A stretch of DNA of 64,000 nucleotides from NCBI RefSeq assembly GCF_003945595.2, contig NW_024104419.1, positions 1-64,000 on the forward strand. The letters run 5' to 3'. Positions 250-64,000 of the stretch are shown piece by piece. A model generated the notes under the pieces. That model was not told where the DNA came from and did no database searches. It saw only the letters and a list, made by a program, of their open reading frames with translations. Position numbers and translations under genes: made by a program. The DNA comes from Pipra filicauda. Taxonomy: Eukaryota > Chordata > Aves > Passeriformes > Pipridae. How positions within the stretch are numbered: position 1 is the first letter of the stretch; every line of letters begins with the position of its first letter.

Positions 250-3200
250 GTCAGACATTCCAAGTAACGTCACAGGAAGCTACAAAGCTGAGTCTGGCGT
301 TCTCAAGGCCTCCGCTACCTTCTGCAGAGGTGAGTGAAAGCCTCCACAGACTGTGAAATTGCCCCTGTGCATGAAGGTTCAGGTGTCTCTTGGTTCACTT
401 GACTAAAACAATTTGATCCAGTGCAAACAAGGGATGTCACTATGGACTGTGTATTGTAGAGTCCATTAACACAATCCAAGAGCTGCCCAGAGAACTAATT
501 TCTATAGGCTAAGGAGACATACTTACTAGAAGTGTTCTTATATTCTTTAGCAGTTGCAGCTAGTTGCTGATAGAAACAGAATATTGGAGAATACAGACTT
601 TAGATCCAACAAAGAATATGAAATATTTTTGCTATTAATTGAGAGAAATTTATCACACCTGTGTTTGTTGGACAGGAATAAAAAATCTCCAGAATAATGA
701 TCTAAGCTACTTCTTCCTCTCTGGTGTGTGACCACCACACCAGGGCGTGTTTTGTTACCCAGTCATGTTATTATGCATACAGCTTGTTTATTTGTGTTTT
801 CTTCTTGTGTTGGATTTGTTTCTCAAACAGGACGGCCATTATTATGTTTCCCTTTTCTCAAAGCAGTCTGAAAGCCAGTGATTGCTTGTGAGACTTTCTA
901 AATATGCTGCAGCTGTGTGCTACTCATGATGATCTGAAGGCGATCCTTTTGCATCTCCATTTTCAGGATTGCAGGAAGCTGAGTGAAGATGTCCAAAATG
1001 CCATTCTTGCAGTTGCCACAGTATACTACTGGCTCCCCAAGGGCCAAGGTGAGATAGTGACAGCAAGGCAGCCACCCCTGTATAAAGAAACCCCATATTT
1101 CAGAGCCCAGTATGAGATCTGACATCCACAGGAAAGCAAACTTTCATTAGCAGGTTATCCCATTATCAGCTGTTCTGTAGACTTTGAACGTGTTTATGAA
1201 TGAACTACTTGTCTGTCTACTCCTGCAGATTTCCATCTGTGGAAGAATGATAATGTAGGAAGTTGTATAGTTGATTGAGTGTTGGTATTTATGAAGTGTT
1301 GAAATTATTGTCCAGAGTCCTTTTGGAACTGGGAAGCATCTTGCCTCCTTCCAAATACCTGTAACTTCATTTATACAGTGTATCCACACAAACAGAGCAG
1401 TCTCTGTGTTCATCTTTGTGTTCATCTCAGCAGTTGCTTTCTGTCAGTGCTGACTGTGGCAGCTTTCTTGCTCTTTCTCAATCTCACCCAGGTACTACTC
1501 TCCGGAAGATGGTACGAGATGCTACCACTGAAGTAGTGGAAGGGATGATCCAGCTCACAGACACAATTCTCAATGCTCCAGTGGAGAGGTAATTTCTAAT
1601 CACATGATTCTATGATTTTATGATAATTTTTTGGAAAAAAGGGAAGAAAAAGTTACAAGTATACTTGTTAACAAGTATACTTGAGTCTAACTTTGGGGGC
1701 TTTTGTTTTGTTTCAGCTTGTCTCAGGAACAGCTTATATCCACTGGAGGTGTGTGGGAGGCATGTGAACAAGTGTCCAACCTGCCACGAGGTGAGTGTTG
1801 TAAATGCAGAACAACAGGACTACGATGTGTTGTCTTGGAAAATCAGTAGCCTTTGCAAAGGTATTCTAGGTGGTACAATGAAGGCTCACTCATTCTCCAA
1901 AACCCGACTGGTTTTGAAATGTATAAACTTGGAAGCCGGGCCAGATTCTTTGCATGACAACAGTGCAGCTCTGAGCTCTGCAAGAAGTATGATCCTGCAG
2001 TCTCAAGATCTAATGATGGCAAACCCAGATGAAGGTTGTTGCAAACTGATTTGAAACAGTGGGGTGCCACAATTTTTATCCTTTTCCTTTGCAGATAACC
2101 AGGCAGCAGTTGCATCAGCTCTGACTGCGTGTCTGGGTGTGGTCAAGGACGCTGTGGAGGAGATGGAACATGTAAGGAAGCCCCTGAGCCTCAGAGGAAC
2201 CTGCAGTGGTGGATTGTAGACTCACAGAATATCCTGAGTTGGAAGGGACACACAAGGATCATCGAGTCCAACTCCTGTCTCTGCACAGGGCAACCCCAAC
2301 AATCCCACCATGTGCCTGAGAGCATTGTCCAAACAATGCCTGAGCTCTGGCAAATTTGGGGCTGTGACCACTGCCCTGTTCCAGTGCCCCACCACCCTCT
2401 ATGGTGGTTCAGTGATGGAATGCAGGGATTGTTTTATATACAGGCTTTGGTTTAAATTTGTTCTGATATGACCTAGGTTATTGGTTTTTGCATGGATTTT
2501 AATGAGTTTTTAATCTCAAACCGGGTTTACTTGATGTAAGGTATCCATAAAGCCATGTCCTGAAATGGGGGACATGGGAGATTGTGGGAGGAAGTTTAGG
2601 GTGATGTAGGAATGGCAGTATTTACCAGGTTCTTGCTGTTTGCACTGTTGAATTAGAGTGGGGGATTAATTTATCTTAATCCAGTTCTGGGATTAACCAG
2701 CTGAGATTTCCCCCATTAATTATTTGCATGATGTCTAGATGATGTTCTCCCTTTCCTCCCGGGTATTGCTGGCATTGATGTCAGGCTCTGGGTTTTCAGT
2801 GCATCTGTGTTCTCAGGCACTGGTGGAAGGGCAGGATCCCTATGGTGACATCATGGAAGATGAGGAGCTGGGCTTTCGGGGCAACAGAGACACATATTGG
2901 TCAGAAGGTGACCGGCAGCTGCTGAGCTCCTGCATGGGGTTAATGAAGGCTTCCAAAGCTTGCCTGAAGAAGGTCCTGGGTGCAGTGAAGGCCTATGGCA
3001 AAGCTGATTCTCCAGAGCAGATTGCTCAGCTGGATGACCTTGCAGACATTGCTAATGAGATCAGTCCAAGGTAAGCAGGTCTCTCCCTGTGCTGCTTTTT
3101 GCTCTGGAGCAGCCCTGGTCTCGAGGTCTAGAGAATGGATTAGGACCTCCTTTATGATACTGGAGCTGTGAGCAGGTGTTGGGGAGACTATTATGGTATA

Positions 3201-5554: not shown

Positions 5555-8500
5555 TCAGGCAGCTGCAATGTCAGTAGTTCTGTAGCTCTTCAGGCTCTGG
5601 AGTTGAGGGCAGGTAAGTTGTGCAGTGAGTCTCCTGGGCCCTGCTTGGATGGGGGTGAATGGGATTTGCAGCTCTTGAGTGCTTTTAGCTTGCACAGATC
5701 CCAACCTGAAAGGTGAGAAGGGATTATACAGGAATCACACCTCTCTGTATTTCTGGTTCCCTGGGCCTAGGAGATGCATTTGGTAGACAGGAGTGTGGTG
5801 CCAAAAGTAAAAAGAAAGGAGAAAAAGAAATAGAAGAAAGCTAGCAGTTATCTAAACTACCACAATGGAATTGTCATCTGACAGTAGTTTGGGCAGGAGG
5901 TAGGACAGGAAAGTTGAAACTCCCCATGGAGCCATCTAAGGTGACTTTGTCCTAATGCAGCTTCTTCAGATAAATGTGGGGTGTTTGTCCTGTGCAGGAG
6001 AGCACACCTTTTTGGATGACTCTTGGTTAAGTCACATTTGCCTGGTTCTTCAGTTGGGAAGGGGAAGACACCACTACAATTGTACCCAGGGACTGTCTTT
6101 ATTGCTTACAGTGGGAAATGGGTGGAAAGATATGTCACAAACAGTATAGTTTTATTCCACTTAAGCATGTTCAAGTGGCTCACTAAAAAGTAATTGATTT
6201 CTCAACAGCAAATTTCTGAACTTCATGGCTCATTTCAGTGACCTCTAGCTTGTCTTATTTAATGTGAGTTTCTGACTAAGTCTTGTGGTATTTCTCTTGT
6301 TATCCTTTTGTTGGCAGGAAGCTTTTCCTTTTGTTGTCTAGGCCTTTGTGGTTGAAGCTTTCACAGATGCCATATTGGCTTCAACTTATGCGTTACACAT
6401 TTGTTGGAAGTTCTGTTAGCTTCTCCTTTTGAGTGTGAAAATCTTCTGTATTGTATGTAAATAAAGGACAGAATGCCTGGGGCTTTCATGCTAAAGCAGT
6501 GTCTTCCTGCCATGTTGTTGCCTGGTTATTTTTGGGGATAGCCTTTCCTGTGCAAGGGTTTCTCTAGCTTGTATTGTGTCTCTTTTTCCATTTGCTGTTC
6601 TCAGATCCATCAGTTTGCACTTACCTGTACTTCCTCTGTCTGTAAATGAGCCCTTGCCCTGCAACTGCTACCACACACTGTTCCAGGGGTTTGGGGAAAG
6701 GGTTCAGGAGGCTGATCCTTGCTGTGCTTGGCTGATACTGTACCATGGTTTTTGGAAGCTGTTGAAAGAAGGAAATGAGCTGAAACTGAGAGAAGGAGAA
6801 AGATTCTTCTGTGATTAAAGGGAGATGTATAATTTTTGGTGCCAAAGCTGCCAGTTGGCAGAAGAGGCAAAATCCAGGTTAGTTTCTTCTGCTCTAGTTT
6901 CCTTCTGCAGCCTCTGATTTCCAGAGTAGTCAGTGAGTTAGGAGTCATCAGGATTTCCTCATGCACACACACAGAAAAGGCAGAAGTGGGAGCACTGTGT
7001 ACAACACTGGCCCAACTCACCTTTCCCAAACTGATATCCCAGTGCTTTGAAAGAACAAGGCATGAGGAGAGCCACTGAACCAGCAGAGTTGTTTTGCTGC
7101 CTGTGACTGTGAAAGCTGTTTTCTCCCTACTGCAGTAACAGAATGACAGCCCAGTCTAACCTCAATAGTGTGAAGGGGATCAGAAACGCTGATCTCTTCC
7201 TGTGCCAGGTATATGTAGCAGGAGGCCTCATCTCTCAGCACAGCAGTCAGCCTGAGCAGGTGGGTCTCCCCCAGCTCTCTTCCACACCATGAGTAAGGCA
7301 CAAGGATCTTCAGGTTGTGGACTGGAATAGAGTGGTGAAATAACAGATGATGAGTAGAAGTCTGGTCTTTGCCTGCGTGACACCTCTGAGTGTTTAGTGC
7401 CCAACATTGTACTGAAAGCTGCAGTGTTTAAATGCTTAAGTGATCCCAGCTGGATTCACAGATTGAAAATCTCTAAGGTGGTGTTGCCAAAGTGTTGTAT
7501 TTCACAGAATCACTGAATGGGTAAGGTTGGAAGTGAATCATGTGGTCAAACCTCCCTGCCCAAGCAAGGTCATCCCAGAGCACATGGCACAGGATTGTGT
7601 CCAGATGGTCCTTGAATATCTCCAATGAGGGAGACTCCACAACCTCTCTGGGCAATCATTTACAATCAACTATTCAGACAACCTTTTGTAAACTTATGGC
7701 TAAGAGCATTTTTTCTGAAGTGAGAACTAGATACACTTTTCTAGCCATGCACTCAGCCGAGTCCTTACCTTCATTGCTTTGGAGGTTAAAATTAAACTCT
7801 TCCTTCCAAAGCTGAGTAATAGGCACACCATTATAATGTAGAGACTGGACCCCAACTACCAGCTGAGTAGCCTTTTCTTCACCACTGTGGTTAGACATTT
7901 CAATGGAAAGTGGAATATCTTGTCCTGGTTGCAGAGAACTACTCGACTGGAGGTGGAGGGAAAGGTTAACTGGCTCTTCAAGGGCAATAGGAATGGAGCT
8001 AAACACTGTTGAGCTGCTGCTGGTGGTTGTCTCAAGTTTCCTTATACTTCTGTAGGCTTTGTCAAGTACTCCTTTTTCCTTAAGAGAGCCTGTCACAAAA
8101 AGGAACACGTATTTTAGTATCCTTTCCAGTTTACTAGTGTGAAGCAGCAAGTGCAGGAGAATGGCATTGATTTATCCTGGCACTGCTGTAGATAACTGTT
8201 TCTAAGAGCATAGAGAGATATCCTTTTGAGCTTCTGGTTGGAGCAGTTCAAGAATTTCTGCTGACAGGATATTCATTAGATGTACCTGACAGATTCTACT
8301 TGGGAAGAGTTGTCATAGCTTTTAAAGCACCTTGGTGCTAACATCTGTCAGAGTAAAGGAGGCATTGGCCTCTTTAACTGTTGCTGTAGCTGAGGCACAG
8401 GGCTGTGTTCTCATGTGATGGACTGCAGCCAAGGAGACAACATGCCACAGCCTAAGATGAGATGGCAGGGTTGGGTCAGGGAAACAGCACTCACATTCTG

Positions 8501-11500
8501 AAGCTACTTTTTCAGGGAGAGATTTAGGCAATATCTGAGAGCATAACAGTCCTTTTCAGAAATCTGGGGTCTGAAATAGTTCTATCTATCTGTCTGTCTA
8601 TCTATTACAGAGGTAATGGGAGGTGAATGTACAGAGTGTAGAGGCAACAGGAACCAGAAAAGTTTTTCCAGATGTGGAAGTGTCTGGTAAAGAAACACCC
8701 AGCCATCCACAGACCTGGTTAATGCAATTAAGCAGATGAAATTTAGGCTTTGGTTCTGTAGACAGAGTTGGGTGTTCTCGTGCCATTGAAGAAGGGGAAG
8801 TTGTGAGAAGTGGATGACCCTGGTGTTTTGGTTTGGCTCTGCTCTCTAGCCTTTTCCTCTTCACTTGCAACACTGCCAAGGAAGGTGCTCAGCCACTGGC
8901 CAACCCCATACCTTCAGGATATTTGTAGTTGTGTGTGATGTCCTCACAGCGTTCACTGCCAACACTCTTGGTGCTGATGTTGTTACCAGTGTATTTTGTG
9001 CCACCAAAAGCTGGCTTAAGGGTGTCATCTGCTCTTTGTATCCAGACCTGACACTTGGCATTGATGGCAGCAAAGAAGTAGCAAACATCATAATCGACTT
9101 CTGTGTCCCCTTCCTTGATGGCGTGGACAGGGGCTGGCCCACAGAAGGATCGACCTGAAGAGAAAACGTGGCCTAGTTAAGATTCAGATGCTTTACCAGC
9201 TAAAGCCATCCCTAGTTTAGACCTATACTGGGATTAGTGAAGTATCTAGTTCAGGAAGACATTAGGAAGCAGTGCTGTGATAGAGCTCTTAAAGCTACAT
9301 AAGCTGCGTAAACCAAACAGATAAATAATGATTTGGGGCCTAAAGTCAGCAAGGTGAGTCCCTGTCCTGTTGCATCTTTCCACTGGAAGTTGGGGAAGGG
9401 AGGAATGCTGAACTGCTCCTCTTCCCCCCTTTCTCAAGCCCATCTCTGGTATCTTACCTTCACTTTTTTCCTGGCAGGTGGCATCCAGTGCCTGCCACCC
9501 GCTGTACTGGGGTGGCAAATCAGCCCGAGCCATCCAGCATTCGTTCCAAACGTGGAAGGTCCTGCAGGAGACATCACGAGCTTATACCAAGGGACTGGGC
9601 CCTGAGGTACAGTACATTTTTAGCCAAATCACAGCCGGTCAATGCTCCTTTGAAAGAGTTCAGTGCATGTTGAGGAGAGCAGAGACCACGTTTTTTGATA
9701 CAAGTGGAATTTCTCTGGCTGGACTGGGCTATCATTCTTCCTTTGTGGGCCCTAATAATAAAGCACTCTTCAGTTTGGGTTGCCCACTTTATCAAGGACA
9801 GGTCATGTAGACAGGATCTCAGCTGAGCTGTCTCCTATCCACCTCCCTGCAGCTCTTTCACCTCTTTGTTCTCCCCCCCATCACTTCCTACATCCAGGTG
9901 TTGTCTCAAATTCTTGCTTGGGCCCTGCCATGTTTCCTTACCAGACACGAGCACGCTTGTCCTGAGTGAGCAGTGTCCCATCTTCATCATAATACTCATC
10001 CACACTCAGGCTGCTCTTAGTGTTGTGAGCCCATGTAAAGCCAGTGACCACCCTGGTAGGGATTCCCAGGCACCTCAGAACTGTGCAGAAGAGAGAGCCG
10101 TGAATCAGTTGTGCATCCTGCCCTAAGGGTGCCTCTGCTGATGGGTGTAGAGCCTTTTTTGGTGCTAGGACTTTTAGGAATGGCACAGGCCTGCTGTCTG
10201 GACTTTGCAATAGTCCTTGCCCCTTCAGGAAATAAGATCTCATAAGTGCCTTCAGAGAATGGATGTACTGATACTCTTTTATCTCAAAGCTAGTGATGGT
10301 CAGTGCTGACGAGGAAACTCTGGGGATCTGCCTCTCACCTAAAGATTAAGGGTTGTGTTACTGGGATCTGTGTTAATCCAGGAATTTAGGCATATGCTAG
10401 AGGTCCTGCAGACCAAATAAGGCTTTGCTCAACACGAAGGTCTTTGAAGCACCACTTTGAGGTACCTGAACACATGACTGCAGCAAACACCCAGCAGTGC
10501 CCGTAGCGGACAGGCTGGCGTTTCGATGCCATCCACTGCCAGAGGATGGGGCTGCTTCCCAGCCACTTGGAAGGGGGTGTCCCATTACGGTATTTCCCGG
10601 CCTCACACTCTGCCAGGATTCCTTTAAGCTCATTGCAGTTCAGCTGCAGGGAAGGAGGAGAGAAAGATGTATTAAGGAATTGCCTCTCTTTGCTAGATCA
10701 ACCCAATCCTGTTTGATGAAGCCATTCCCAAGGCAGATGAAACCAAGAGGATTTTTTTGGTGCAAAGCATGAAGGTCATGGCTGAGCAGAACAAGCACAG
10801 CAATGTCCTCTGAGATTTATTCAGTAAGTGAATAAAGTCATTGCTAAGAAACTCCTGCAGCACTACTTGTCTGCTGTGAGAATATCAGGACAGGCTGGAG
10901 GTCGGGTTTGGAACAGCCCTGGGCAGGCTTCCTCTTTGGTCAGTGGGTTGCCCTGAGCTGGGGCTGAGAAGATGCACCCTGGGATTGAGAAGATGCACCC
11001 TGCTAGTGCCAGGGCTGCTGCCTGCTCTCCTTACCATGGCAGCCACTGCTCGGCAGACGTGGACAGGGCTCCTGCGCTGGGTGGGATCCTTCTCTCCTTG
11101 ATGGTGTTCACCCATGCACAGCAGTGTGAAGCAGATGTCAACAATGCCCTGCTCAAACTGAAACAAGAACACATCATTTCAGGAAATCCGGCCTGAGTTT
11201 TTGTTCTCTTGAGTCCCTACGAGGGTTTGGAACTGTGGAGGTTGTTTCTCCCTTTCTGCTGATTGTCTTATAGAATCTGTCCTGTTCTAATCACTGGCTG
11301 TGTCAGGTGGCCTTGGGCAAATTGAAAGATCTACTTGTCCTCACTTTACCTGTAATACAGAGACAGTATTACTAAGTTCTGTTAAATGCTTTTATACCTG
11401 TTTTGGAAAGGAAGGCACACAAAGCTCGGATATAGATCAATGCGTATCTTTATATAGGACAGCCTGAGAAGGTAGCTAAAATGACATATAGGGGGTTATG

Positions 11501-14148
11501 TGATTTCATGCAGAGGTCCCTGTTCTCCTGCACAGGCTTAGACAAAGACAGTGAGTGCAGAGAGCAAGGTCTTTCATCAGAGCCACAGCACAGAGATGGG
11601 TAAGGCTATCAGCATCCTGTACACACAAGGATGTGTACCCTTCTCTGCTGGTGGCTGTGAGAGGGCACAGACATGTTGGAACTCTGGCTTACCTGACTGA
11701 AGTCCCAGGGTTGTGCTACGGCTGCATTTTCAGTCCCCCAGTAGATGACACCCTCCTGGTTTAAAATGTACTCCTGCCGCTGTGCCTCGTTGGGCAAGAA
11801 CACCTCATCATCTAGATCAGAGGGAAAAAAGCATCAGGAAGAAAGCATTCCTGGTCTCAGATGCACTTGCATCTCTCTGACATCAGCAGACTCCACTGCA
11901 CTCCAGGGACTTCAGCAGTCCCTGGCATCCTGCCTTGAAAAATTTCACAGTTTGTGAATCAGACAGGAAAAAAGAATTTCACTGTAATCTCTGTTCCTTG
12001 TTCAAAAAGTTCCTCCAGACCTAGGCAGTTGCACTTGCTGGCTCTGCTACTCTCCTGGCTGGTAACTTCTCTAATACTGAGAAAGATACAGTGGCCTTAA
12101 TCAGACTAGTCACAATCTTGACTCATCTTAAAATCTTTACTATAGGAAACACTTCATCAAGCATTTTTCCTTAGCAGAAGGGCAGGGCTCTGGCAGTGGA
12201 GTACTCCAGCAATGGGACAGAAGTGCTGAGGTAGGCAACTTTGAGCTTTCTTAGCCCCTTCCTCTCTCCTCAGGTGCTGTGAGGAGCAGGGCAGGAGGGG
12301 CAGGGAGCACTGGGTGGGTCAGCCTCAGCCTCCAGGAGGGCAAAGTGCCAGAGCTCAAAAGCTGTTTTTGTGAAGTGACTGATCCCAGCCTGCCTCTCCA
12401 TTTCTGACCACATACCTTGGCACCAGGGGTTAAAGAGAAGGGTGAATTCTCCCAGGTCATGGGAAGTTTGGGAAGCACGTAGAAGCAGAGTGTACTGGCC
12501 AATGGGAGCATTGGCAGGGGTGTTCACAGTGAGGGTCCAGGAGCACAGGTCCTGTTCTTCCAGTGCTGCACTCCACTGCTTCTGGTCTCCCAGGCTGGAG
12601 ATGGGAAATTCAGTCTGGATTTCATCTCCTTTGGAAGGATGTCGTCCTGTAGCCAAAGAGATCTGGTTGTGTTTATTCCAAACATTGTGTTTATTCCTCA
12701 CCTGTGCAGACTGCAGGGACCTTGTCTGTTTGGGAGCCACAGCTCTCCTCATGAAAGAGTCTAAACCCTTTAGCAGCTTGATGCCTTGTGAACCTTCCTA
12801 AGGTTACTGCTGCACTCAGGCCTCCACATTTGAAAGTGAGATGTGCATTTCATAGATTTGTAGAAACCAGTGTATTCACTGCCAGAATGGTGCAGACCTG
12901 CTGCTCCTGGAATTCAGTCTTAGAACAAGAGTCACAGCCAAATGCTCAAGTTTTGGTAAAACAGGCTGGGGCTGAACGTTGCTGTCCTTCTCAGGGGTCT
13001 CACTAGAGAACGTTCCTTAAGGCTACCTAAGTTTGAACATTCCTAAATCAAAAGCCAGGAGAGATCTTGTGAGTACTTTCAAATCACGGAGTAGTGAACC
13101 TGTATTGGTTATTGTGCTGCAGTGTCTCTTCTGGAAAGGGATCTGGTTGTGACCCTGCAGCAGCAGGAGACTATTTTGCCTTACATAAACAGTTCACTGC
13201 CTCATGTCTAAATGTGGGCACCTCTGTCCTGCTCTGGAGATGGCTTTGCCACCAGCTCTGTTCTTCAGGAGTGTGGAGTTCTGATAGGTTTGGTAGTGGT
13301 GTTACCTGTCTGTGCAATGATGAAGGTCCTCTTCATCTGCTGCAGGTAGTTGTGTACTGGAGCTGAGAAGTTCACAGTGATGGTGAATGGCTGCCCCCGC
13401 CTCACAATCAGCCTTTCAGTGCTGATTTCTTCTGTGTGGTGGTTATTGTTGTTCATGGGGACCTTGAAATCGCATTTTTTGAAGCTCAGACCTGTAGTGT
13501 GAGAAGATACAGAATGAGTTTGGGGCTGTGAACTGCCTGCAGTCTGGCCCAGAGCCACATTCTGAGACACACAAACAGCTGGCCAAGTGTTTTCTCCACT
13601 CAGACATTCCCTCCCTGCCTTTGAGACTTTCTGACCAGTAACTGTGGGAGCCTTCACTCTGAGCTTGGTTGTTCTGCTGTCAAGTGGCTACTGAGCTGCC
13701 TTTTTTGCTGTCACTTTCTTCAAGGTTGCTTGGAACCTGGACCCTCTCCCTGCTGCGTGGCTAAAACACTTCATCATCTCTCTGCTTCAGTTTTATAGTC
13801 TGGGTTACCTCCCACCACCCCTGCCCTCCATTCCCTCTGTCGAGGATACCTCACTTGCCTTTGCTTCCAGACTCTCACCTGTCTGCCTTAGCTGCTTCTT
13901 GCTGCTTCTCAAGCTCCTCTTAGACATTGATACCAGCTTTTGTTTGCTGTGCCTTTTTGTGCAGTCTGCCATGCAAACCCAACTCCCTCAGCTTTTAGAG
14001 CACAGTCTTGGCTCCTGCCCTGTAAGCTCAGCTCTTCTAAAGCCTCGTGAACACTGTCTTGGAGCAAGAACAGTTGGTTTTTTTCCCTGACACACAGCTT
14101 GCAAATGCTTGGAACTAACCAAAGTGATTTTTGCTTACCTTGGCCCAT
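5555..14148 (-). CDS. EPB42: EPB42, erythrocyte membrane protein band 4.2, complete, with intact transglutaminase triad
   Basis: Transglutaminase-fold protein of the red-cell membrane skeleton. In mammals it binds the cytoplasmic domain of band 3 and ankyrin and is enzymatically dead. Thirteen coding exons: 14148-14139, 13491-13306, 12646-12416, 11811-11693, 11157-11035, 10643-10466, 10080-9942, 9561-9458, 9154-8912, 8089-7769, 7321-7161, 6758-6625, 5705-5555. Total 2100 nt, 699 residues (human 691). Diagnostic EPB42 matches: [49 protein letters not shown] and FTPIQAG. Starts MGQGLSF, a Gly-2 N-myristoylation pattern as in human protein 4.2. Unlike mammals, the core has Cys273 (YGHCWVF), His332 (FHVWNE) and Asp355 (GWQALD), the TGase triad. 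The calcium site-3 loop is altered: Asn302, Lys304 and Ser306 replace Asp, Asp and Asn. The hinge near exon 10 is Ser/Thr-rich (TTTSSSS). Neighbours: convergent CCNDBP1 and tandem TGM genes upstream. Identity is secure; activity is only inferred. Confidence 0.95.
7503..7662 (-). repeat. CR1 LINE 3' fragment in EPB42 intron 10
   Basis: Reads as a typical avian CR1 3' end in reverse orientation: an ACAGAATCACTGAATGG-type end, 'GGTTGGAAGTGA', then 'CACAGGATTGTGTCCAGATGG' and 'GAGACTCCACAACCTCTCTGGGCA'. It ends abruptly before exon 10 and is 5'-truncated. Confidence 0.85.
8579..8606. repeat. (CTAT/CTGT)n tetranucleotide microsatellite
   Basis: Short imperfect run of CTAT and CTGT units in EPB42 intron 9. 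Confidence 0.8.
10466..10643 (-). CDS. EPB42: EPB42 exon 6, carrying the retained catalytic cysteine
   Basis: The 178-nt exon encodes residues 224-282 and begins in phase 0 after a CTGCAG acceptor. Near its end it reads [13 protein letters not shown]. The Cys (residue 273) aligns with the nucleophile of active transglutaminases and with the alanine known at this place in mammalian protein 4.2. The tryptophan after it, which stabilises the thiol intermediate environment in the family, is also kept. The TGC codon is at about 10495-10497. Confidence 0.9.
10965..11002. repeat. 17-bp direct duplication, 21-bp period
   Basis: The unit TGAGAAGATGCACCCTG occurs at 10965-10981 and again, identical, at 10986-11002, within EPB42 intron 5 about 33 bp from the exon 5 donor. 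Confidence 0.85.
11290..11372 (+). repeat. MIR SINE fragment
   Basis: Contains the MIR core and 3' wording in order: 'TCACTGGCTGTGT', 'GGCCTTGGGCAAATTG', 'CTTTACCTGTAATACAG', 'ACAGTATTACT'. Diverged, as expected for an ancient amniote SINE. It lies in EPB42 intron 4. Confidence 0.65.
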
Positions 14149-62050: not shown

Positions 62051-64000
62051 AGTACCCTGAGAAGTCTGGGCTATTCTGTCTCTTGTCACATTCCCTCGTT
62101 GAAAAATTAGGCAAGGAACTTGCTCAGCAAAGCTCGCTCCTGCCATCCGAGATCCAGCAAGGCAAGTGGGTTTCTACAGCTCTGCTGTCTTTGTAACCCA
62201 CTCTAGGGAGAGACCTGGGCCCCTGGAACAGTGCTGTGGACTGACTCACATCAGCACTCCCCAGGCCTAGAGCCCCCTGATGTGGACTTGGTCAAGTCCC
62301 CATGGAAGAGTATTTGGTGGAGATCTCTTCTGGGCCTTACATGTTGTTCAAGACATACTTCTTACTTCCTGTCTTTGTCTTTTGTTCACAAGGCCCTAAA
62401 TAGCAGGGGCATTTTGAAGGGAAGCCTTCAGCCTTCTGCAGCCTGAAGCCTTCCTGAAGTTCCTGATTGTTCTTGAAGTTCTCATTCCAGCTCATTTCAA
62501 GTGGGAGACTGGCAGTGGCATAGTAGTGACATGCACTAATATGTGAACTTCAAAAACTCCCACGGGACCAGGACACAGGAATAAACCAAACTGGCAGTGC
62601 ACAGACTGGGATGAACCTCTGCTGGGCTCCCCAGGCAGCTCCCAGTCACACACCACCTGTTATTTATAGCCCATTATATTTAAATTTATTTCCCTACCTC
62701 TTCCACTTATGTACACATCCCTTCCATGGGAAGAGAGTAAAGATATTATTTGTAAGTTTTAACTTCCAGCTACTGCTGCACACTCATCATCAAAGAACAC
62801 TCTTTTCGGGCTCCCATCACTACCCTGCTCTGGTCATTTCTTCCAAGAATCCAGCAGGTTGTCCCATCCTGTGCACAGCCACTCTTAATGCTAATGCCCA
62901 AACAAGATGCTTGCAGGTGTAACTCACACCTTAATTGTAATGACACTGAAGCTTAAAAGTGACAGACAGAAGCTGAGATAATTATTTTGAGTGTGAGGCT
63001 GTGAAGCAAATCCTTAGTGGCAGTAGTGGTGCTGCAGACTATCAAAACCCTTAAAAAAAAATCATGCTATCAAATTTTTAGGATCTTTTTAGGTACTTTT
63101 CCCTTTTCTTTGTGCACAGCCTTCTGGATTCTGTTAAAGCAAGTCCATTGCAGATTGGCCCACAGATGCAGAGAAATTTTGGGGAAAAAAGAAAGTGTGT
63201 CTGTCTGCAGGATGTGTGTCAGGGGGTGGGAGGAGTAAGGAGAAAGAGAGGAGGAGTGAAAACAGCTCTGTGCACATACACACCTGCACAAAAACCCTCA
63301 CAGTTTTTTTACATGAAAATTGTGCCTGGCAATATGAGGAGCATCCCCGTGCAATTTTGGTATCTCCGACTGAACTTGGGTGTTTCTTGGACCCTGGGCA
63401 TTGCACAAGCAAGTGCTGATCATGATCAGCAAATACCAGTTACATGCTGCTGTTGCTTCTTGCATTTTGTGTGACAGGAAAATTGTCGTTAAGAAGGATA
63501 GGCTGCTGTCTGAAATTCAAAGAGGAAGCTTTTAGAGATCACCTTGCTAAAATGTTCTGGCTAAGCTATTGGCAAATCATTGCTTAAAAGGAAGTGTTAC
63601 AATGCAGAAACAATTGGTTTGTTGGGTTTTTTTCCCCATTGCTGTAGGTAAAGATTTTAACTGTCCACTTTACTGCATAGTTCTTTGGTTAAAAAAGGAA
63701 TTTTTCTCTTCAGTCTAATATTTCAGCTTCACCTATCAAATTTTGTTTCACTATTTATTTAAGCTCTGCTCAATGGAGATTTATGAGGGCATTAATAGCC
63801 TTATGCTCATTGTATGGACCCAGTTCCCTCCCAGCCTAAGTTCTGCTCTTAAAACAGGTACACATGTAGATGGTATCACACCCAGCAGCTGCACTGAGAT
63901 AGTCATTAACTGAGCACCATCATGCTGTGGAGGGATGCTGGCACAAGGTCAGGACAATAACATGAATTATTTAAAATAATAATATATGGACAAACACTCG

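Follow-up and report, generated by a model that had tools for sequence, protein, structure and literature searches.

EPB42 and its neighbours in the manakin window

The window analysed here, which covers contig C770 (1.08-Gb assembly) from its first base to base 64,000, carries EPB42 on the minus strand at 14148-5555, in 13 exons that encode a product of 699 aa. All 12 introns have AG/GT borders and the 699 aa frame is open throughout; this includes exons 10466-10643 and 9458-9561, which are both bordered by AG/GT and read in frame. In the direction of transcription, the features are:

14139..14148, minus strand: EPB42 coding exon 1 (MGQ..), with a GT donor, joining exon 2 in frame
13306..13491, minus strand: EPB42 exon 2, AG/GT borders, alignable to human protein 4.2
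12416..12646, minus strand: EPB42 exon 3, AG/GT gene model
11693..11811, minus strand: EPB42 exon 4, AG/GT gene model
11035..11157, minus strand: EPB42 exon 5, AG/GT gene model
10466..10643, minus strand: EPB42 exon 6, starting at residue 224 and carrying the Trp241-equivalent position and Cys273
10602..10604, minus strand: codon of residue 237 (Glu, GAG), the TG2 Trp241 equivalent, from the alignment and the start of exon 6
10494..10496, minus strand: Cys273 codon (TGC), the TG2 Cys277 equivalent, from the spliced model
9942..10080, minus strand: EPB42 exon 7, with the loop matching TG2 305-310, AG/GT gene model
9458..9561, minus strand: EPB42 exon 8, carrying His332 and Asp355, AG/GT gene model
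9552..9554, minus strand: His332 codon (CAC), from the spliced model
9483..9485, minus strand: Asp355 codon (GAT), from the spliced model
8912..9154, minus strand: EPB42 exon 9, AG/GT gene model
7769..8089, minus strand: EPB42 exon 10, AG/GT gene model
7161..7321, minus strand: EPB42 exon 11, AG/GT gene model
6625..6758, minus strand: EPB42 exon 12, AG/GT gene model
5555..5705, minus strand: EPB42 exon 13, including the TGA stop codon, AG/GT gene model

Over 100% of its length, the window product is 99% identical to the EPB42 annotated in another manakin, Lepidothrix coronata (10 differences in 699), which argues against mis-framing or an assembly error. As the match to this annotated gene spans the full length, we set aside a gene-model or assembly error and conclude that the manakin EPB42 gene is intact. 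The earlier note had claimed a catalytic triad at Cys273, His332 and Asp355, and all three residues are indeed found there in spliced, in-frame exons, within the motifs YGHCWVF, FHVWNE and GWQALD; they align with Cys277, His335 and Asp358 of TG2.

Among solved structures, human protein 4.2 is the best relative of the manakin product (622 bits, full length), ahead of TG2. In a phylogenetic tree whose only outgroups were human TG2 and the three TGM paralogs of the window, with no other TGM included, 33 EPB42 rows including the window sequence cluster together with a support of 100. This tree and the comparison with other TGM loci lead us to reject a mis-assigned paralog, and the manakin gene is an ortholog of erythrocyte protein 4.2 within the EPB42 clade. 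The same tree places frogs outside the remaining tetrapods (support of 98 for the rest without frogs), which we tentatively take to be a long-branch artefact. The arrangement in 13 exons is also the one reported for TG2-7 and band 4.2 in the available text of PMC13073648.

Three further TGM genes lie on the minus strand at 17.7-28.0 kb, 33.1-43.9 kb and 52.8-59.0 kb of the window, and in all three the equivalents of Trp241, Cys, His and Asp are present in the readable exons. The plus strand carries a GCIP_C domain at 2739-3071 (71.2 bits, above the cut-off), with a GCIP_N exon just under its own cut-off. In jawed vertebrates, the TGM cluster is reported to adjoin CCNDBP1 (PMC11152450, available text), and a plus-strand GCIP-family gene beside EPB42 fits CCNDBP1.

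Distribution of the catalytic triad in tetrapods

Three protein searches, each represented by its best 120 rows, gave 262 distinct database proteins, which are representatives of 90% clusters with isoforms included. These proteins and the window sequence make up the 263 rows of our residue table, from which none was removed and which holds several isoforms per species as well as partial records. Changes per site in birds were counted on 88 near-full-length rows (87 database rows and the window), with 30 of the 117 bird database rows left out as short, of low quality or isoforms. Neither marsupials nor monotremes were noticed among the matches listed (best 120 rows per search, some of them nameless), and our statements on mammals therefore cover the listed placentals. 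EPB42 from turtles and snakes is absent from the best 120 rows (lowest 903 bits), in which lizards, crocodilians and amphibians are present, and the missing turtle and snake genes are possible losses.

The manakin cysteine is no isolated reversion, a prospect that the earlier note had raised against its own reading: among the matches listed, the 118 bird rows have the cysteine in 113 cases and the histidine and the aspartate in 117 each. At the C277 equivalent, the other listed bird rows show Arg (2), Gln (1) or a gap (2). The Gln row is apparently a mis-spliced model and the two gapped rows apparently partial records, and both Arg birds, the sunbittern (Eurypyga) and the kagu (Rhynochetos), group together in the bird tree. 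Among the non-avian matches listed, the triad is complete in crocodilians (2/2 rows), salamanders (3/3), four of five lizard rows and three of four caecilian rows; the exceptions are Pogona, where Gly replaces the Cys and Arg the His, and Geotrypetes, where Arg replaces the His. Frogs have His in place of the cysteine in 11/11 rows among the matches listed and retain the His335 and Asp358 equivalents. The frog proteins are 932-962 aa long (n=11 among the matches listed), and EPB42 from Xenopus has four Transglut_C stretches; the other four proteins scanned, three avian and one from a salamander, have two.

The replacement of the mammalian cysteine by alanine, as previously claimed, is borne out in 119 of the 120 mammal rows among the matches listed, the remaining one being gapped, and these mammalian rows are without the histidine and the aspartate too. 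Here, the H335 equivalent is Gln in 114/120 rows (His 1, Arg 1, gap 4) and the D358 equivalent is His in 59 or Tyr in 53 of the 120 rows, again among the matches listed. Human protein 4.2 accordingly has Ala, Gln and His at the positions where birds keep Cys, His and Asp. The proposal that the triad was lost on the mammalian line is thus supported as far as an active ancestor and a mammalian loss are concerned, but it is too narrow, since losses are also seen in frogs, Pogona, Geotrypetes and the sunbittern and kagu. Sachslehner et al. 2024 report in the available text that the critical residues are kept in some, but not all, amphibian and sauropsid EPB42 proteins and in no mammal investigated (PMC11152450). 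Our row counts agree with that statement, so the triad itself is already known, and its pattern has been in print since 2024 (PMC11152450).

The Trp241 equivalent and other active-site residues

Besides the triad, the available text of PMC13073648 describes Trp241 of TG2 as stabilising the oxyanion, as a residue that all active human TGs strictly conserve and as absent in band 4.2. The transamidating activity of TG2 W241A is reported as undetectable (PMC2701606, available text), and W241A TG2 also serves as a transamidase-deficient form in the available part of PMC10380275. The manakin sequence has Glu at this position (residue 237), and Trp is found in 0 of the 115 readable rows among the 118 bird rows of the matches listed, where Gly (59 rows) and Glu (48) predominate, followed by Arg (4), gaps (3), Asp (2), and Ser and Lys (one each); two palaeognath rows, kiwi and rhea, have Arg and Lys. 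Among the matches listed, Trp is present in crocodilians (2/2), lizards (5/5), salamanders (3/3) and caecilians (4/4), the position is gapped in all 11 frog rows, and Trp occurs in 0/120 mammal rows. Mammalian protein 4.2 (PDB 7tvz and others), which likewise starts with MGQ, has no Trp241 equivalent either.

A misalignment of the Trp241 loop was rejected: the window and alligator loops align gap-free, and any Trp at residues 225-248 is found in only 3/88 bird rows, with that of Pachycephala one position off. No paper on Trp241 in bird EPB42 was found by title or start of abstract in the open-licence literature. Sachslehner et al. 2024 treat the same gene in sauropsids and amphibians, and in the available text Trp241 is unnamed and birds are unspecified (PMC11152450). 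Within these bounds, two findings appear to be new here: no readable bird row has Trp241, and the sunbittern and kagu show a Cys to Arg change.

Elsewhere in the manakin genome, five other TGM loci, those on C1138 and C982 as well as the three of the window, have both Trp241 and the Cys. A sixth TGM locus, on C1127 (at approximately 3.4-8.7 kb within the locus), has the triad and Glu at the Trp241 place, together with Gly after the Cys and an altered AHD loop, and may be another transglutaminase with the triad and without the Trp. In a TGM fragment on C317, the Trp241-bearing exon was not found.

Among the matches listed, bird rows keep the Trp332 and Thr360 equivalents almost without exception. 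For calcium binding, we considered D233, D306, N398, E447 and E452, which are ligand positions in TG2 and TG3. In the 118 bird rows among the matches listed, N398 (114), E447 (112) and E452 (116) are mostly kept, and changes are found at D233 (F in 75 or L in 17) and D306 (N in 112). The D233 equivalent is L in one readable crocodilian and H in lizards, the alligator has N at the D306 equivalent, and crocodilians have Ala at the E452 equivalent; only salamanders keep the D233 and D306 equivalents in every row among the matches listed. The calcium loops therefore date no loss, because their changes are not bird-specific, and judging by these residues, EPB42 may also have impaired function in crocodilians and lizards. 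Salamanders and one of the two caecilian species keep the triad, Trp241, Trp332 and Thr360, and with the D233 and D306 equivalents also in place, salamander EPB42 would be the likeliest to be still active. The bird equivalents of H305 (115/118) and E363 (99/118) are also mostly kept among the matches listed, and both residues are said to favour transamidation over deamidation (PMC13073648, available text).

These comparisons bear on the suggestion of the earlier note that bird EPB42 retains cross-linking, that is, would be a working transglutaminase. TG2 and bird EPB42 share the triad and the Trp332, Thr360 and Tyr516 equivalents, so that Cys-His-Asp, Trp332 and Thr360 are complete, and N398, E447 and E452 of the calcium sites are mostly kept; however, the two differ at the Trp241, D233 and D306 equivalents, and the absence of Trp from every readable bird row among the matches listed, at a position where W241A inactivates TG2 (PMC2701606, available text), weighs against such activity. 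We consider a working avian enzyme very improbable, although thiol chemistry, the other option that had been put forward, is possible. A scaffold is likelier than a cross-linking enzyme because a fourth residue needed by such enzymes is absent.

Conservation and possible role of the retained triad

Across the 88 bird rows, the Cys changes once and the equivalents of His, Asp, Trp332 and Thr360 are invariant, compared with a core mean of 5.2 changes, and the Trp241 site changes 13 times, faster than 92% of sites. The triad counts speak against a decaying neutral leftover; although the losses in the sunbittern and kagu, frogs, Pogona and Geotrypetes are what such decay would give, we regard this explanation as hardly credible. 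At the same time, 27% of the core sites are invariant in the 88 bird rows and 41% have at most one change. Of the 15 cysteines between residues 140 and 444, 9 likewise have at most one change, and the conservation of Cys273 is therefore ordinary.

The mean modal frequency of the Cys motif is 0.92 in birds, 0.93 in the Cys-less frogs (n=11 rows) and 0.91 in mammals, and that of the His motif is 0.98, 0.96 (n=11 rows) and 0.94, respectively. Conservation alone is thus no proof of catalysis, because frogs without the Cys keep both motifs about as well as birds do, and together with the bird site counts, this comparison led us to reject triad conservation as such proof. The Asp motif is different: its mean modal frequency is 0.995 in birds and 0.98 in frogs (n=11), but 0.83 in mammals, below the mammalian core mean of 0.87, which implies that this motif does decay where the enzyme is dead. 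Overall, the motif pattern speaks for structural constraint, except around the Asp.

A different view is that bird EPB42 is no transamidase, yet Cys273 would be under selection for thiol chemistry in nucleated red cells, for example slow hydrolysis or thioester formation, S-acylation or redox sensing. The Cys in 113/118 bird rows among the matches listed, with one inferred replacement in 88 rows beside a freely variable Trp241 loop, would fit such a role. So would the sunbittern and kagu, the one bird clade without Cys273, in which the equivalent of Cys371 and a Gly close to the catalytic position are altered as well, as in a decaying thiol site. However, the same Gly change is found in Scopus and Picathartes, which both have the Cys, eight of the 14 remaining cysteines between residues 140 and 444 are equally conserved, frogs have the His and Asp without the Cys, and both birds with the Cys to Arg change, the kagu and the sunbittern, have a full-length protein. 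From these sequence comparisons, we judge selection for thiol chemistry to be rather unlikely. A more elaborate version would see a half-dismantled transglutaminase: stem birds would have lost the oxyanion Trp, the triad would have been maintained throughout the evolution of living birds for thiol chemistry other than transamidation in their nucleated red cells, and of the birds sampled, the sunbittern and kagu clade alone would have given up this function; taken jointly, these steps seem to us quite unlikely.

Our preferred explanation is that manakin EPB42 is a protein 4.2 scaffold of enzyme descent, whose canonical transamidase activity was probably lost in stem birds. The ancestor of EPB42 would have been an active transglutaminase, and its canonical transamidase activity would have disappeared on the bird stem together with Trp241. 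The loss of Trp241 would have added to changes at the calcium-ligand positions, of which the D233 equivalent is already altered in crocodilians and lizards. The triad would have been retained within a conserved structural core, where we assume it to be buried, and the manakin protein, like protein 4.2 of mammals, would serve as an adaptor at the red-cell membrane. In chicken, EPB42 is reported as a marker of an erythrocyte cluster with SLC4A1 and SPTB (PMC13063687), and a second study lists it with erythroid genes, alongside SLC4A1, SPTB and ANK1 (PMC8944783), each in the available text. Several observations count against this scaffold explanation: the invariance of His, Asp, Trp332 and Thr360 and the single change of the Cys in 88 rows exceed what a pure relic would need, the H305 and E363 equivalents are mostly kept, and the Asp motif is weaker in mammals than in birds and frogs. 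Moreover, another residue could stand in for Trp241, and Pachycephala has a Trp one position away.

Finally, a preserved triad is no evidence of activity in the transglutaminase/EPB42 family. The tetrapods sampled hold graded states, from the triad with Trp241 (salamanders, crocodilians and most of the lizards sampled) and the triad without Trp241 (birds) to proteins with no Cys (frogs, kagu and sunbittern) and those in which the whole triad is lost (placental mammals), and these natural states make the step from a cross-linking enzyme to a red-cell scaffold testable in the laboratory.
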